Shown here piece by piece: positions 5,651 to 27,629 of a stretch of DNA of 64,000 bases (positions are counted from its first letter, which is position 1; every line of letters starts with the position of its first letter). Both the position numbers and the translations under genes were made by a program. This DNA comes from an uncultured Paracoccaceae bacterium (GTDB taxonomy: Bacteria > Pseudomonadota > Alphaproteobacteria > Rhodobacterales > Rhodobacteraceae). The notes below the pieces were generated by a model. The model was not told where the DNA came from and ran no database searches. It saw only the letters and a list, made by a program, of their open reading frames with translations. The stretch is from NCBI GenBank assembly GCA_937920555.1, contig CAKZTM010000008.1, positions 1-64,000 of the forward strand, written 5' to 3'.

Positions 5651-5788
5651 TTTTGGTCCATCTCAACGAGGCAGCGGCCAGCCCGACGTTCATCATGATG
5701 CGCCGCACATGATGTGCGGTCACAAACTCAAGGTTAGCATCAAGAGATCGCGCCATCAGCCCCATTTTTTGAAGTGCCGCGCGGTGGG

Positions 5789-16326: not shown

Positions 16327-17097
16327 TTAAAGACGGGCAAGCAGAGCCTCGTGCAGCTCCGGTCCTGCGGCGATGATGCCGGGCAGATGCGGCATGGTAT
16401 TGTTGAAGCGCACGGTTCCGCCATTTTGGGTCGAGACTTTTGCACCGGCCTCTGCGGCGATCAAAGTTCCTGCGGCCACGTCCCATTCCCATGTGGGGCG
16501 CAGGGTCAGCATAGCGTTGAATTGGCCATCGGCCACAAGGCACAAGCGGTAGGCCAGTGAGGAGCGGAAATGCCTTTGCACAGGGGGCACGCCGCCGGGC
16601 CAGAACTGGGCGGTCAGGTTGAATTTGTTGGACAGCACGGTGGCGGTTTCAAGGGTGTCATGGCCGCGAAAGCGGATCGGTTGGCCGTTGAGTTCTGCGC
16701 CTTGCCCAAGCGTGGCGGTATAGGTGAGGTCAAGTTCGGGCAGGTGCACCACGGCGGCTTGAACCTGTCCGTCGGTGGCAATTGCCAGCGAGGTTGCGAA
16801 GGTCTTGGAGCCCTCAATAAAGGCGCGTGTGCCGTCGAGCGGATCAATGATGAACACAGAGCGGTTGTCGGCGCGACTGGACGTGTCTTCGGTTTCCTCC
16901 GACAGCCATCCGTAATCGGGGCGGGCGCGCAAAAGCTCCCGTTCCAACATCGCGTTCATGGCCAGATCGGCCTCGGTGACCGGGCCTTGCCCATCACCCT
17001 TGTCCCATGTCTGCGGGTCGTTGCGGAAGAATGTAGAGGCGATTTTGCCCGCCTCCAGAGCGGCATCGGTGAGCAGCGCGAGATCAGCTTCCGGCAA
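16327..17097 (-). CDS. Inositol monophosphatase family / 3'(2'),5'-bisphosphate nucleotidase (CysQ-like)
   Basis: SEETEDTSSR, VFIIDPLDGTRAFIEG, TWEWDVAAGTLIAAEAGAKV. Confidence 0.85.
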   Translation of the reverse strand: MPEADLALLTDAALEAGKIASTFFRNDPQTWDKGDGQGPVTEADLAMNAMLERELLRARPDYGWLSEETEDTSSRADNRSVFIIDPLDGTRAFIEGSKTFATSLAIATDGQVQAAVVHLPELDLTYTATLGQGAELNGQPIRFRGHDTLETATVLSNKFNLTAQFWPGGVPPVQRHFRSSLAYRLCLVADGQFNAMLTLRPTWEWDVAAGTLIAAEAGAKVSTQNGGTVRFNNTMPHLPGIIAAGPELHEALLARL

Positions 17098-20537: not shown

Positions 20538-21845
20538 ATGAAATTCACACAAATTGTAACCGCGAGCGTTCTGGGGATGGCCACGGCTTTGCCGTCCACA
20601 GCCTTTGCGCAAACGGAGATCCAATTCTGGCACGCCATGGGCGGTCGTTTGGGCGAGGTGGTCGAAGAGATCGCTGTGAAATACAATGAAAGTCAGTCCG
20701 AGTACACGCTCGTACCCACCTATAAGGGCGGATATGAGGACACGATGACCGCGGGGATCGCGGCATTCCGTGCCGGCGAGCAGCCCAATCTGATCCAGAT
20801 TTTTGACGCAGGCGCGGCCACGATTATCAACGCCAAGGGTGCAACTGTCGCTGTTGAAGACCTGATGATGCAGCATGCGGATGGCTTTGACGGGTCTGAT
20901 TACATCGAGGGTGTGCGCTACTTTTATGCGGACACTGATGGCAAGATGATCGGCATGCCGTTCAACTCATCGACGCCATTATTGTATTACAACAAGGATG
21001 CGTTTGCCGAAGCTGGTATTGCGAACCCGCCTGCCACTTGGGAAGAGTTTGAGGCGATTGCACCTAAGCTCAAAGAGGCCGGTTACACGGCGCTTGCGCA
21101 GTCCCACAGCCCTTGGATTTTCTCGGAGAATTTCCATTCCCGTCACAATCTTCAGCTTGCCACAGGCAATAATGGATATGACGGAACGGATGTCAAAATC
21201 CTGTACAATAACGACCACATGAAAATGCACTGGGGTAAGGTCAAAGAGTGGCTGGATGCCGGGTATTACGGTTTTTACGGCCGTGCTTGGGGCGACAATC
21301 AGGATGCATTCGTGCAAAAAGAAGTTGCCATGTGGCTTGGGTCTTCGGGGTCTTTCGGCGGTTTGGCCAACTCGGCTGAGTTTGAGTTCGGAGCGACCTA
21401 TCTACCTTATTGGAAGTCGATCATTGAAGAGCCAATGGGCACGTTCATTGGTGGTGCTGCATTGTTTGCCATGTCTGGCAAAGCGGATGAGGAGAACGCC
21501 GGTGTGGCCGACTTCCTGGCATTCCTGACCAGCCCGGACATGCAGTATTTGTGGCACAAGGAGACCGGTTATGTGCCGATCACCAATGCCGCCTACGATC
21601 TTGCAAAGAGCGACGGCTATTACGACAGCACGCCTGATGCGGAAGTTGGCATTTTGCAGTTGTCCCAGCCCGGTGGGGAGTGGACCAAGGGATATCGGCT
21701 TGGCTATTACGTGCAAATCCGCGACGTGATGTACAAGCATTTCGACGATATCTTCTCAGGCGAGGCCTCTGTGGAGGAGGCGTTCTCGGCCATGGAGCAA
21801 GAGTCTAACGACCTTCTGGATCGCTTCAAAGCGACTTATAACTGA
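20538..21845 (+). CDS. ugpB: sn-glycerol-3-phosphate ABC transporter substrate-binding protein
   Basis: Signal peptide; EIQFWHAMGGRLGEVVEEIAVKYNESQSEYTLVPTYKGGYEDTMTAGIAAFR, typical UgpB. Confidence 0.93.
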   Translation: MKFTQIVTASVLGMATALPSTAFAQTEIQFWHAMGGRLGEVVEEIAVKYNESQSEYTLVPTYKGGYEDTMTAGIAAFRAGEQPNLIQIFDAGAATIINAKGATVAVEDLMMQHADGFDGSDYIEGVRYFYADTDGKMIGMPFNSSTPLLYYNKDAFAEAGIANPPATWEEFEAIAPKLKEAGYTALAQSHSPWIFSENFHSRHNLQLATGNNGYDGTDVKILYNNDHMKMHWGKVKEWLDAGYYGFYGRAWGDNQDAFVQKEVAMWLGSSGSFGGLANSAEFEFGATYLPYWKSIIEEPMGTFIGGAALFAMSGKADEENAGVADFLAFLTSPDMQYLWHKETGYVPITNAAYDLAKSDGYYDSTPDAEVGILQLSQPGGEWTKGYRLGYYVQIRDVMYKHFDDIFSGEASVEEAFSAMEQESNDLLDRFKATYN

Positions 21846-21908: not shown

Positions 21909-22787
21909 ATGAAGCGCGTTCAATTTGAACACTCGGCGATACCTTACATGTTTATCGCCCCCCAGATTATCATCATTGCGGTCTTCTTTTTATGGCCCGC
22001 GGCCCAAGCGGTTTATCAGTCATTTTTGCTGGAGGACGCGTTTGGTCTGTCCTCGCAATTTGTCTGGTTCAAGAATTATTTCGACACGATCGGCAGCACG
22101 TCATGGCTTCAGGCGGCCGGATTTACGATTGTGTTTTCCACGCTGGTGACGATTTTGTCGCTGGCCATTGCGCTGTTGTTGGCGGTCAAGGCCAATGAGG
22201 TTATTCGCGGCGCGCGCACCTACAAGACGTTGTTGATGTGGGCTTATGCCATAGCCCCCCCTGTGGCCGGGTTGATGGGCAATTTGATGTTCCATCCGTT
22301 GATTGGCGATCTTTACAAGTTCATGAACACCATCGGGTTTGATTTTGACCACAAGCTTGATCCGTATGATGCGGGGTTTGTGGTGGTTTTGATCTCTGTG
22401 TGGAAGCAGGTTTCGGTCAATTTCATCTTCTTTTTGTCGGGTTTGCAGGGCATTCCAAAGTCGGTCAATGAGGCCGCCTTGATGGACGAAAAGTCGTCGT
22501 TCCGGCGGTTTTGGACGATCACCTTCCCGCTTTTGGCCCCGACCACGTTTTTCTTGATGGTCATCAACATCACCTATGCCTTTTTCGAGACGTTCGGCAT
22601 TATCGATACGACCACGCGCGGGGCACCCGGTGGGGCCACAACCACGTTGGTGTTCAAGGTGTTCCAAGATGGTTTCCGGGGTGCGGACATTGGTGGTTCA
22701 TCGGCGCAATCGGTTGTGTTGATGCTGATGGTGCTGGGACTGACTGTGATCCAATTCCGGTTTATTGAGCGGAAGGTGCATTACTGA
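21909..22787 (+). CDS. ugpA: sn-glycerol-3-phosphate ABC transporter permease UgpA
   Basis: Six-TM permease with EAALMDEKSSFRRFWTITFPLLAPT EAA loop; operon position. Confidence 0.93.
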   Translation: MKRVQFEHSAIPYMFIAPQIIIIAVFFLWPAAQAVYQSFLLEDAFGLSSQFVWFKNYFDTIGSTSWLQAAGFTIVFSTLVTILSLAIALLLAVKANEVIRGARTYKTLLMWAYAIAPPVAGLMGNLMFHPLIGDLYKFMNTIGFDFDHKLDPYDAGFVVVLISVWKQVSVNFIFFLSGLQGIPKSVNEAALMDEKSSFRRFWTITFPLLAPTTFFLMVINITYAFFETFGIIDTTTRGAPGGATTTLVFKVFQDGFRGADIGGSSAQSVVLMLMVLGLTVIQFRFIERKVHY

Positions 22788-22876
22788 TGAGCTTCTCGTT
22801 TCACACACTTAAAACAGCCCCGAAATACGTCGAAGTTGGACGAGTTTTGGGCGACCTGGGAACGGGACCTTTCTGA
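22787..22876 (+). CDS. Candidate 29-aa small protein between ugpA and ugpE
   Basis: MSFSFHTLKTAPKYVEVGRVLGDLGTGPF*; start overlaps the ugpA stop (TGATG) and stop overlaps the ugpE start (TGATG). Confidence 0.5.
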   Translation: MSFSFHTLKTAPKYVEVGRVLGDLGTGPF

Positions 22877-23727
22877 TGAAGTTTGATTGGCACACCGTAA
22901 GCACGCATATCATCCTGATTTTGGGTGCCATTTTCATGACCTTTCCGGTCTGGGTGGCGTTCATGACCTCTACCCATGCGCCTGAGACGATCTTACGTGA
23001 GGGTCTGCAACTTTTGCCCGGCGGGCATTTCTTTGAAACCTATAACGAGGTTCTGTTTGTCGAGGGCGGGGTGATGAAAAAGGTCACCGCCATGCAGATG
23101 ACCAAAAATTCGCTGATCTTGGGGATTGGGTTTGCCATCGGCAAGGTCGTCATCTCTATGCTGGCGGCTTATGCGATTGTCTATTTCCGGTTTCGGCTGG
23201 CGGCGCCGTTGTTTTGGGTGATTTTCATGACGCTTTTGCTGCCTTTGGAGGTTCGGATTATTCCGTCATACAAGGTGGTGGCTGATCTTGGGCTTTTGGA
23301 CACCCACACGGGTTTGATCATTCCGCTGATCGCCTCGGCCACGGGGACGTTCTTTTTCCGGCAGTTTTTCCGGTCGGTCCCAGAGGAGTTGCTGGAGGCC
23401 GCGCGTCTGGACGGTGCGGGGGCATGGCGGTTCTTTATCGATATTCTGGTGCCGTTGTCCAAGACCATGATTGCGGCGATTTTGATCATCATGTTTGTGG
23501 TCGGGTGGAACCAATATCTATGGCCATTGATCATGACCACCAAGGAGGAAAACTACACCCTCGTGATCGGGATCAAGCAGATTTATCAGGTGATTGCCGA
23601 GGGTGGTGAGTTGCCGCAATTCCAAAAAGCATTCGCATTGACCATTTTGGCGACGTTGCCGCCGGTTTTGGTCGTGCTCATTTTCCAGAACTGGTTCGTG
23701 AAGGGCCTAGTTGAGAGCGAGAAATAA
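22876..23727 (+). CDS. ugpE: sn-glycerol-3-phosphate ABC transporter permease UgpE
   Basis: [27 protein letters not shown] loop, [27 protein letters not shown]. Confidence 0.93.
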
Positions 23728-24785
23728 TGGCGCGGGTTGATTTAAAAGACGTCCGAAAGACCTATCCCAACGGGGCCGAGGCCATACGCGGCGTCGATAT
23801 GAGCATCGAAGACGGTGAGATGATCGTTTTTGTGGGGCCGTCGGGTTGCGGGAAATCGACGTTGTTGCGGATGGTGGCGGGGCTCGAAAGTGTCACGGGC
23901 GGCGACGTGGAGATTGACGGGCGGCGGATCAATGATGTGTCGCCCTCGGAGCGGGACGTGGCGATGGTGTTTCAGAATTATGCGCTTTACCCGCATATGA
24001 CTGTGCGCGGGAACATGTCCTACGGGCTCAAAAACAAGGGTCTGCCCAAGTCCCAGATTGAGGCCAAGGTCGTTGAGGCCGCCAAGATGCTGCGGATTGA
24101 TGATTATCTGGATCGCCAGCCGCAGCAGCTATCAGGCGGGCAGCGTCAGCGGGTGGCCATGGGGCGGGCGATTGTGCGCGAGCCCAAGGTGTTTTTGTTC
24201 GATGAGCCATTGTCCAATCTGGACGCCAAGCTGCGTGTGCAAATGCGCATCGAGATCAAGCGGCTGCAACGGCGCATGAACGTGACCTCGATCTATGTGA
24301 CCCATGACCAGACTGAGGCGATGACGTTGGCCGACCGGTTGGCGGTGATCAATGAGGGGCGGGTCGAGCAGATGGGTGCGCCCATGGAGCTTTATTCCAA
24401 TCCGGCGACGTTGTTTGTGGCGTCGTTCATTGGGGCGCCTGCGATCAACCTGATCCCGGCGCGGTTTGACGGCGCGTTGCAAGCGGGATCCATGTCGCTG
24501 CAAGGGTTTTCTGATCTGCCCACGGGTGTTGATCTGATGCTGGGCATTCGGCCTGATGTGTTGACCATTCGCGAGGACGGACAGTTCAAGATGAATGTTG
24601 ATCTGGTGGAGCAACATGGCGGGGAGAACCTGATTTACGGCTCGCTGGACGGGGTTGTGGACCACGAGATTTGTCTGAAATCTGGCCAATCGGTATTGCC
24701 TGCGATTGATGATGAATTGACCTTGGGCTTTGATCCTGCCACCTCGTTTGTATTCAGGACTGATACGGGCGAGCGGCTGAAATAG
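23727..24785 (+). CDS. ugpC: sn-glycerol-3-phosphate ABC transporter ATP-binding protein UgpC
   Basis: Walker [12 protein letters not shown], signature [17 protein letters not shown], Walker [18 protein letters not shown]; start overlaps the ugpE stop. Confidence 0.94.
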
Positions 24786-24829: not shown

Positions 24830-25618
24830 ATGACCCAATCCGCACGCCTTGAGGCTGCCAAGACGATTGCGCGTGATGCCGGTGCTATGGGTCTGGCATT
24901 TTTCCAAGATATCTCGAAATTGCAAATCTCAGACAAAACCAGCGCGCATGATATGGTCTCTAACGCGGATCTGGAGGTGGAGACATTCGTGCGCGCGCGC
25001 ATTGCCGAGGCTTTTCCTGAGGACGGGATTGTGGGCGAAGAACACGGTGACAAGGCGTCGAAATCCGGTTGGACATGGGTGATTGATCCCATCGACGGGA
25101 CCGCCAATTTCGTGCGCGGCATCCCGCAATGGTGTGTGATTTTGGCATGTGTCCATGAGGACGAGACCAAGGTGGGTGTGATGTTTGAGCCGTCCTACGG
25201 CGAGATGTTTGAAGCCTCCAAGGATGGAGGGGCGTTTGTGAACGGTACGCCCATGAAAACGGCGCAATCGGGCGGGCTTGATGATGGCTCGCTTGGGGTT
25301 GGGTTTAACGGGCGGACGCAAGCCGGGTTGGTGCCTGCATTGATTGCCGATCTGACCGCGCGTGGCGGCGTGTTTTTCCGCAATGCCTCGGGGGGGTTGA
25401 TGTTGGCATATGTGGCGGCGGGGCGGCTCATTGGCTACACCGAGCCGCACATGAACGCGTGGGATTGTCTGGCCGGGCAGTTGATGATCCGCGAGGCGGG
25501 CGGGCGCACGGAAGTGCAGTCGGCGGACGCTATGCTGGCCTCTGGCGGGCGGGTGATCGCCTCTACCGCATCGATATTTGACGAGCTGGTGGCCATGTCT
25601 GACAAGGCCTATTCTTGA
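24830..25618 (+). CDS. Inositol monophosphatase family protein
   Basis: GIVGEEHG, WVIDPIDGTANFVRGIPQWC, AWDCLAGQLMIREAGG. Confidence 0.9.
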   Translation: MTQSARLEAAKTIARDAGAMGLAFFQDISKLQISDKTSAHDMVSNADLEVETFVRARIAEAFPEDGIVGEEHGDKASKSGWTWVIDPIDGTANFVRGIPQWCVILACVHEDETKVGVMFEPSYGEMFEASKDGGAFVNGTPMKTAQSGGLDDGSLGVGFNGRTQAGLVPALIADLTARGGVFFRNASGGLMLAYVAAGRLIGYTEPHMNAWDCLAGQLMIREAGGRTEVQSADAMLASGGRVIASTASIFDELVAMSDKAYS

Positions 25619-26427
25619 GCGGGCGCAGCCTGATCAATCACGCAATTCTTCTGACGGGACTGATTTTTCTGGCTTTGCCCATAGTGGTTGTTGTGATGTC
25701 TTCGACCCATCCCTCGGGCGTGTTGCGCAGTGAGGGTTTGCAGTTGTTGCCGGGGTCCGGGGGCGTTGCGAACTACACGCGGGTGTTCACGCTGGAGGCC
25801 GGATTTACCGACCGGGTGACCGCGTTTGAGATGCTCAAAAACTCGACCATTTTGGGATTGGGTTGCGCAATTTTGACGACTTTGTTTTCGGGTTTGACCG
25901 CCTATACGGTGGTGTTTTTCAAGCTCCGTTGGGCGGGTTTCGTGTTTTGGCTGACCCTTGTGACATTGCTTTATCCACTTGAAGCGCGGTTCATCAACAC
26001 GTTTCAGGTCACCTCGGATTTGGGGTTGATCAACACCCATGCGGGGCTGATCCTGCCCACGTTGTCGCTGGCGCTGGGCACGTTTTTCTACCGGCAGTTC
26101 TTCCTGACGCTGCCGCCGCAATTTCTGGAGGCTGCCATTTTAGACGGGGCCGGTCCGTGGCGGTTTCTTATGGATTTTATCGTGCCTTTGTCGTGGTCGC
26201 GCACGGCGGCCATTTTTGCCATTTCGTTCATTTTGGGCTGGAACCAATATTTGTGGCCGCTGATGATTTCCACCGATGACAGTCTTTACACGCTGGTGCG
26301 CGGCATCCGGCTTTTGGGGCAAAATTCCGGTCCGGGCATGGCCTTTGTGGTGTTGACCATTCTGCCGCCCTTGGTGTTGCTTTTGATCTTTCAGCGCACC
26401 TATTACACCGATATGACGGACAGATGA
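25615..26427 (+). CDS. Carbohydrate ABC transporter permease (UgpE-like paralog)
   Basis: [56 protein letters not shown] start overlapping the upstream stop. Confidence 0.88.
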   Translation: MSGRSLINHAILLTGLIFLALPIVVVVMSSTHPSGVLRSEGLQLLPGSGGVANYTRVFTLEAGFTDRVTAFEMLKNSTILGLGCAILTTLFSGLTAYTVVFFKLRWAGFVFWLTLVTLLYPLEARFINTFQVTSDLGLINTHAGLILPTLSLALGTFFYRQFFLTLPPQFLEAAILDGAGPWRFLMDFIVPLSWSRTAAIFAISFILGWNQYLWPLMISTDDSLYTLVRGIRLLGQNSGPGMAFVVLTILPPLVLLLIFQRTYYTDMTDR

Positions 26428-27629
26428 ACGCGCGCACCCCGCCCTCTATGGTGACCCTGATCCTGCTGACGGCGATGGGTATTTTATCGCTTAATATGTT
26501 TGCGCCGTCGCTCACCCATATAGCGGAGGATTTTGGCGCAGATTATGCGCTCGTCAGCCTGTCGATTGGCGGCTATCTGGCGGTCACGGCGGTGTTGCAA
26601 CTGATCTTGGGGCCGTTGTCGGACAGGTATGGGCGCAGGCCGGTTTTGCTGACCGGTTTGAGCTTGTTCACATTGGCCTCGGTCGGGTGTTATTTCGCGC
26701 CGACCGTGGAGGTTTTTCTGGGGTTTCGCCTGCTCCAAGGGGCGGTGATTTCGGGTATGGCGCTGAGCCGTGCGGTGATCCGGGACATTGTGCCGGAGAA
26801 AGAGGCGGCCTCTAAAATGGGTTATCTCAACATGGCCATTGCGGTGGCGCCGATGATCGGTCCGACCTTTGGCGGCTTTCTTGATGAGCTATTTGGCTGG
26901 CGCGCCAATTTTGCGACATATGCGATTTTGGGGGCCGCGGTGACGTTGCTGGCGTGGCAGGATTTGGGCGAGACCAACAAGACCAAGTCCGAGACGTTTC
27001 GAGCGCAATTCGCGATTTACCCGGAGGTTTTGGGCTCGCGCAGATTTTGGGGATATTCGGTCTGCTTGGCGTTCTCAGTTTCGGGGTTTTACACGTTCAC
27101 CGCCGGCGCACCTTTGGTGGCGCAGCGGGTCTTCGGGATGTCTCCGGCGACGCTGGGGATTTGGATGGGGACAATTACGCTGGGGTTTTTCAGCACCAGT
27201 TTTGTGGCTGGAAAACTGTCTGGGCGGTACGCTTTGACCACGATGATGCTGGCGGGGCGGGTTTTGACCTCCACCGGGTTGTTGGTCGGGTTTGTGGTGT
27301 TGGTATCGGGCTATGTGCATCCGCTGGTGTTTTTCGCATCCACGGTTTTCGTGGGGCTGGGCAATGGGCTGACCCTTCCCAGTGCCAATGTGGGGGTCAT
27401 GTCGGTGCGTCCCGAGTTGGCGGGCAGCGCATCAGGGCTTTCGGGGGCCATGGCCGTGGGCACGGGGGCTGTTGTCACCACTGTGACGGGGGCTGTTTTG
27501 ACGGCTGAGAATGGTGCGTGGATGCTTGTGGGGATATTGCTGGTATCGGCGCTGATTGGATTGGCGTCTGCGTGGTATGTGCGGGTTTTGGATGCGCGCG
27601 CGGCTGCGCAGCGCGGCAATTTTGATTAG
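26424..27629 (+). CDS. MFS multidrug transporter (Bcr/CflA-like)
   Basis: LSIGGYLAVTAVLQLILGPLSDRYGRRPVLL, 12-TM pattern; start overlaps the permease stop. Confidence 0.9.
   Translation: MNARTPPSMVTLILLTAMGILSLNMFAPSLTHIAEDFGADYALVSLSIGGYLAVTAVLQLILGPLSDRYGRRPVLLTGLSLFTLASVGCYFAPTVEVFLGFRLLQGAVISGMALSRAVIRDIVPEKEAASKMGYLNMAIAVAPMIGPTFGGFLDELFGWRANFATYAILGAAVTLLAWQDLGETNKTKSETFRAQFAIYPEVLGSRRFWGYSVCLAFSVSGFYTFTAGAPLVAQRVFGMSPATLGIWMGTITLGFFSTSFVAGKLSGRYALTTMMLAGRVLTSTGLLVGFVVLVSGYVHPLVFFASTVFVGLGNGLTLPSANVGVMSVRPELAGSASGLSGAMAVGTGAVVTTVTGAVLTAENGAWMLVGILLVSALIGLASAWYVRVLDARAAAQRGNFD

Follow-up and report, generated by a model that had tools for sequence, protein, structure and literature searches.

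How did a 29-codon open reading frame come to fill the space between ugpA and ugpE, and does it encode a functional protein? The two permease genes lie in a ugpB-ugpA-ugpE-ugpC operon within the window (the whole stretch of DNA analysed, 64,000 nucleotides), and 88 nt separate the last base of ugpA from the first base of ugpE. The small ORF, translated as MSFSFHTLKTAPKYVEVGRVLGDLGTGPF, shares one TGATG (22785-22789) with the stop codon of ugpA, its ATG occupying 22787-22789, and a second TGATG (22874-22878) with the ATG of ugpE at 22876, its own TGA occupying 22874-22876. Both of its ends therefore carry the stop/start overlap of a termination-reinitiation coupled pair, a class that also takes in stops and starts up to about 20 nt apart. 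The original prediction placed this ORF, its 29 codons and both overlaps exactly to the base, and the GGAAGG it reported about 10 nt before the ATG is present. The gene names also hold, since the top NCBIfam models agree with the names of all four genes, UgpA (and likewise UgpB) scoring somewhat below the curated cut-off. Pairing with the anti-Shine-Dalgarno sequence is predicted at -7.0 kcal/mol for the small ORF and -5.3 kcal/mol for ugpE (the median for -1 junctions of relatives is -6.1), so that a Shine-Dalgarno-like site is predicted ahead of either overlap. Downstream, the ugpE stop and the ugpC start overlap as TAATG.

Features of the ugp operon and of the ugpA-ugpE junction in the window
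Feature	Positions	Strand	Evidence
ugpB	20538-21845	+	NCBIfam UgpB top model, score somewhat below curated cut-off
ugpA, sn-glycerol-3-phosphate ABC transporter permease	21909-22787	+	ORF, ends TGA; NCBIfam PRK10561 UgpA best, E 2e-90, somewhat below curated cut-off
GGAAGG, Shine-Dalgarno-like, inside ugpA 3' end	22771-22776	+	Sequence; 10 nt before small-ORF ATG
Left direct repeat TTACTGATGA, ancestral ugpA stop/ugpE start site	22781-22790	+	Same TGATG junction in Litoreibacter, Tateyamaria, Roseobacter
29-codon ORF, probable relay	22787-22876	+	Sequence and ORF list; orphan among 243 junctions; single copy in genome
MSFSFHTLKT-coding part, like UgpE N-terminus; probable relic of duplicated ugpE start	22787-22816	+	BLOSUM62 score 31
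Right direct repeat TTTCTGATGA, present ugpE start site	22870-22879	+	89 nt from left repeat
ugpE, sn-glycerol-3-phosphate ABC transporter permease	22876-23727	+	ORF; NCBIfam PRK10973 UgpE above cut-off
ugpC, ATPase	23727-24785	+	NCBIfam PRK11650 UgpC above cut-off

The same gene cluster holds a second UgpE-like permease gene (25615-26427, + strand; 48% identical to UgpE), which follows ugpC and a SuhB/HisN-like phosphatase gene and is not accompanied by a second ugpA. About 30 relatives carry homologues of it (54-66% identity) downstream of ugpC, with the phosphatase present or absent and the strand sometimes opposite; an operon with two UgpE genes thus seems to be conserved. Its stop overlaps by 4 nt (ATGA) the ATG of an MFS transporter gene (26424-27629, + strand), which may be coupled to it.

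We compared 243 distinct ugpA-ugpE junctions from named genomes, the window's family and its phylum, a set in which the window's genus is represented by the window's own genome alone. A -1 overlap was found in 87 junctions, a -4 overlap in 19, a gap of 0-14 nt in 97, and a gap of at least 30 nt in only 16. Among the closest relatives, Litoreibacter, Tateyamaria and Roseobacter, with a UgpE identity of about 90%, ugpE begins at the ugpA stop or 1-2 bases past it, as in ...AAGGTGCATTACTGATG... From this, and from the rarity of long gaps, it follows that the window gap is derived and arose by the insertion of about 89 bases. This insertion is restricted to one genome, the window's own, which belongs to a marine bacterium; neither it nor the small ORF was found in 80 named loci, 397 genomes of the family or the phylum sample, and a plasmid collection gave matches at only 60-80% identity, each over less than 80% of the query. 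Aligning the gap across relatives, the check proposed for conservation of the ORF, thus recovered it in no other junction. A trace of the ancestral arrangement may survive at the end of ugpA: a lysine codon is AAG, forming AAGG, in 15/15 relatives with TGATG or TAATG, compared with 6/54 of the others, a contrast inflated by shared descent; the remaining 48 of those 54 use AAA. The window retains AAG.

The insertion is flanked by a 10-base imperfect direct repeat, TTACTGATGA and TTTCTGATGA, at a spacing of 89 nt. The first residues of the small ORF, MSFSFHTLKT, resemble the first ten of UgpE with a BLOSUM62 score of 31, which none of 20,000 shuffles reached and against which the next best among the window's other ATG starts (about 1,785) scored 20; the DNA beyond the ATG codon agrees at 13 of 27 sites, a level matched by 0.7% of window positions, and since the likeness was first spotted by eye these P values are somewhat flattering. 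The left end of the small ORF is probably what remains of a ugpE start that was duplicated, and we infer that a partial duplication of that start was followed by decay or by the addition of filler DNA. The remainder of the insertion resembles neither UgpE nor the rest of the genome. One other locus, L043, is a clear case of relay birth by start duplication: TAATGAAGTGGCGCAGCAC stands there in near-exact tandem repeat, followed by a new ugpE start, and a 17-codon relay results.

Other sources of the inserted DNA were considered and rejected. For tandem duplication of all 89 bp from the 5' end of ugpE, the comparison gave 34/89 identical bases and no significant local alignment, and the likeness to UgpE is confined to the first ten codons. 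A repeat or mobile element was set aside, the insertion being single copy in its own genome, where a search returned only itself and a 14-nt chance match (E 3.2; the genome is 83% complete). Likewise, a 27-nt match of 93% identity in genome G273, antisense within a sulfite-reductase-like gene (cysI), was taken as chance, because a search of 397 genomes should by itself yield about 0.2 matches of this kind and because the genome's own homologue showed no match to the insertion. As for non-coding roles, a structured RNA or attenuator was rejected (fold z-score -0.38; no convincing match to an Rfam family), no promoter match was found, and a weak minus-strand terminator-like site has no evident meaning.

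We think it probable that the 29-codon ORF is a lineage-specific, non-conserved translational relay. In the ancestor, ugpA and ugpE would have been joined directly by TGATG, the junction seen in relatives, and ugpE would have been started by ribosomes just ending ugpA, presumably aided by the AAGG in the ugpA end. The window's lineage would then have gained about 89 bases at the junction. A copy of the ugpE start probably formed the first part of the inserted DNA, which would now be bounded by imperfect TTACTGATGA copies. The old ugpE start site and its Shine-Dalgarno-like AAGG would now open the small ORF. Having terminated on ugpA, ribosomes would restart at its ATG and be carried over the insertion by translating its 29 codons, until termination at the second TGATG would let them begin again on ugpE. 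An open frame over the insertion would thereby preserve both the coupling of ugpA to ugpE and the coverage of the mRNA, and the peptide is most likely functionless. The anatomy of the junction and its evolution are read from alignments, and the movement of ribosomes is what we deduce from them. Reporter work on E. coli gene pairs showed that a 38-nt gap cuts reinitiation by 80-100% (PMC10666635); an untranslated gap of 88 nt would hence be expected to uncouple ugpA from ugpE. Against the relay, ugpE has a weak Shine-Dalgarno-like stretch of its own and might start independently, and the remaining two thirds of the insertion have no matched source.

The strongest rival is chance. A neutral insertion at TGATG would have brought a copy of TGATG with it, the frame would be open by luck, and ugpE would use its own ribosome-binding site, so that coupling no longer matters. 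When the left ATG was kept and the interior shuffled, about 30% of shuffles produced an ORF reaching to between -12 and +30 nt relative to the ugpE start; given the length, the frame and both TGATG ends, the frame was open in 26%, and letting the frame vary as well lowers this, by simple arithmetic (26% / 3), to roughly 9%. The codon use of the small ORF is no better than that of the window's antisense open frames, which speaks for chance. Furthermore, loose rules find some ORF across 7 of the 19 same-strand gaps of 30-250 nt in the window, the ugpA-ugpE gap counted, and only in the ugpA-ugpE gap do TGATG overlaps join the ORF to both genes. (Two of the crossing ORFs, of 36 and 48 codons in the minus-strand gaps 16960-17083 and 5651-5788, end 4-8 nt inside the next gene as judged by predicted gene starts.) The open frame is unusual, yet it is not "unlikely to be accidental", as the original prediction had it, once the ancestral TGATG is counted: with an inherited start, about three in ten random gaps of the same composition read through. 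For the same reason the window case alone proves little, and since the insertion occurs in one genome only, its frame gives no measure of selection.

What tells against chance comes from other genomes. Counting the window, an ATG ORF spans 9 of the 16 gaps of at least 30 bases and ties the two genes together, and the bridging ORFs (for example 42 codons at L040, 28 at L047 and 25 at L270) are unrelated in sequence, with no evident mutual similarity. Leaving the window out, 8 of 11 gaps were bridged, where shuffling of the interiors around fixed start codons gave an expectation of 5.3 (P = 0.007; P = 0.002 with the window included), under start and end rules that were fixed after the first cases had been seen; some long gaps are short enough to be bridged in most shuffles, so that the weight falls on a few, L040, L047 and L270. 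An earlier shuffle test of the pattern, giving P of about 2e-5, was discarded as too generous, because inherited start codons were shuffled away too. On the side of chance stand L041, L237 and L241, long gaps that have no relay although the last two inherited TGATG; a relay is thus not essential in every lineage. Given this excess of bridged gaps and the reported failure of reinitiation across such distances (PMC10666635), we regard chance as an unlikely account of the ORF, if one to be taken seriously. The same two lines of evidence, together with an ATG that is the ancestral ugpE start site, lend support to the translation relay that had been proposed from the outset as one of two readings.

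Some of these long gaps have features of their own. L237 and L241 share a GC-rich insertion with CGACACCCCCCTGAGGCGCT shortly after TGATG and no relay ORF; it looks like a dispersed repeat. In Granulosicoccaceae and relatives, four loci (L040, L041, L043 and L047) have long gaps, each of different sequence, which suggests that the junction is unstable in these bacteria.

The other reading that had been offered, in which the ORF encodes a microprotein with a function in the Ugp transporter, for instance as a small accessory subunit or a regulator, fared poorly. A complete ORF with a Shine-Dalgarno-like site and coupling at both ends, within a transporter operon, is what one would look for in such a gene. 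Most small accessory transporter subunits have a membrane helix; the small-ORF peptide has none, its mean hydropathy (GRAVY) being 0.13 and that of its best 17-residue stretch 0.14. Conservation among relatives of the operon, likewise expected of such a subunit, is absent, as the ORF occurs in no other genome examined. Moreover, it has no NCBIfam match, and its codon use ranks in the lowest 4% of real gene segments. Together these results make a transporter microprotein highly improbable. Equally hard to credit is that there is no separate ORF and that the region instead encodes a frameshifted N-terminal extension of UgpE: the first residues of the small ORF are UgpE-like, and in 21 relatives extra sequence from near the ugpA stop onwards is read in frame and lengthens the UgpE N-terminus, but in the window the UgpE frame is closed by TAA at 22810 and lacks an ATG, GTG or TTG start codon ahead of 22876, and the UgpE of relatives aligns from near the present ATG.

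Of the interpretation as first proposed, then, the relay is supported, the microprotein is not, and the improbability of accident was overstated. The observation is true and its explanation ordinary but instructive, and its value lies in the repeated pattern at the junction rather than in the ORF itself. The ugpA-ugpE junction displays two outcomes, in-frame extension and relay ORF, several times each. It is possible, and we put it forward tentatively, that insertions at coupled junctions tend to survive only if ribosomes still cross them, by an in-frame extension or by an out-of-frame relay. If this is true, operons would repeatedly acquire orphan small ORFs in the form of relays. An orphan operon ORF may bear every sign of translation (start, Shine-Dalgarno-like site, coupling at both ends) and probably have no protein function, and the window ORF is in this respect a caution for microprotein catalogues. 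The junction also offers a ready series of natural insertions with which to test how ribosomes cross operon gaps.

Several known systems resemble this arrangement. Termination-reinitiation coupling at TGATG and ATGA (Huber et al. 2019, 2023; PMC6728339, PMC10666635) shares with it the -1 nt overlaps, the Shine-Dalgarno-like site in the end of the upstream gene and the fact that the products are subunits of one complex; the window differs in chaining two overlaps through a 29-codon frame absent from relatives. A survey of intergenic small ORFs in enterobacteria found many whose start or end lies no more than 10 nt from the gene next to them (PMC11188072), so that proximity on both sides is not rare for small ORFs as a class. 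Mycobacterial interspersed repetitive units (MIRUs; PMC12548453) work similarly, in that an ORF of the element is coupled to a flanking gene at the start codon. MIRUs occur in several genomic copies and their coupling is by -4 nt overlaps, whereas the window ORF has -1 overlaps at both ends and a single copy (in a genome 83% complete), and for want of repetition the insertion is not a MIRU. The same review describes short ORFs whose only role is the delivery of ribosomes (PMC12548453). As is proposed here, the peptide of such upstream ORFs is thought to be irrelevant and their translation drives the next gene; the window ORF differs in lying inside an operon, itself coupled to the gene before it.
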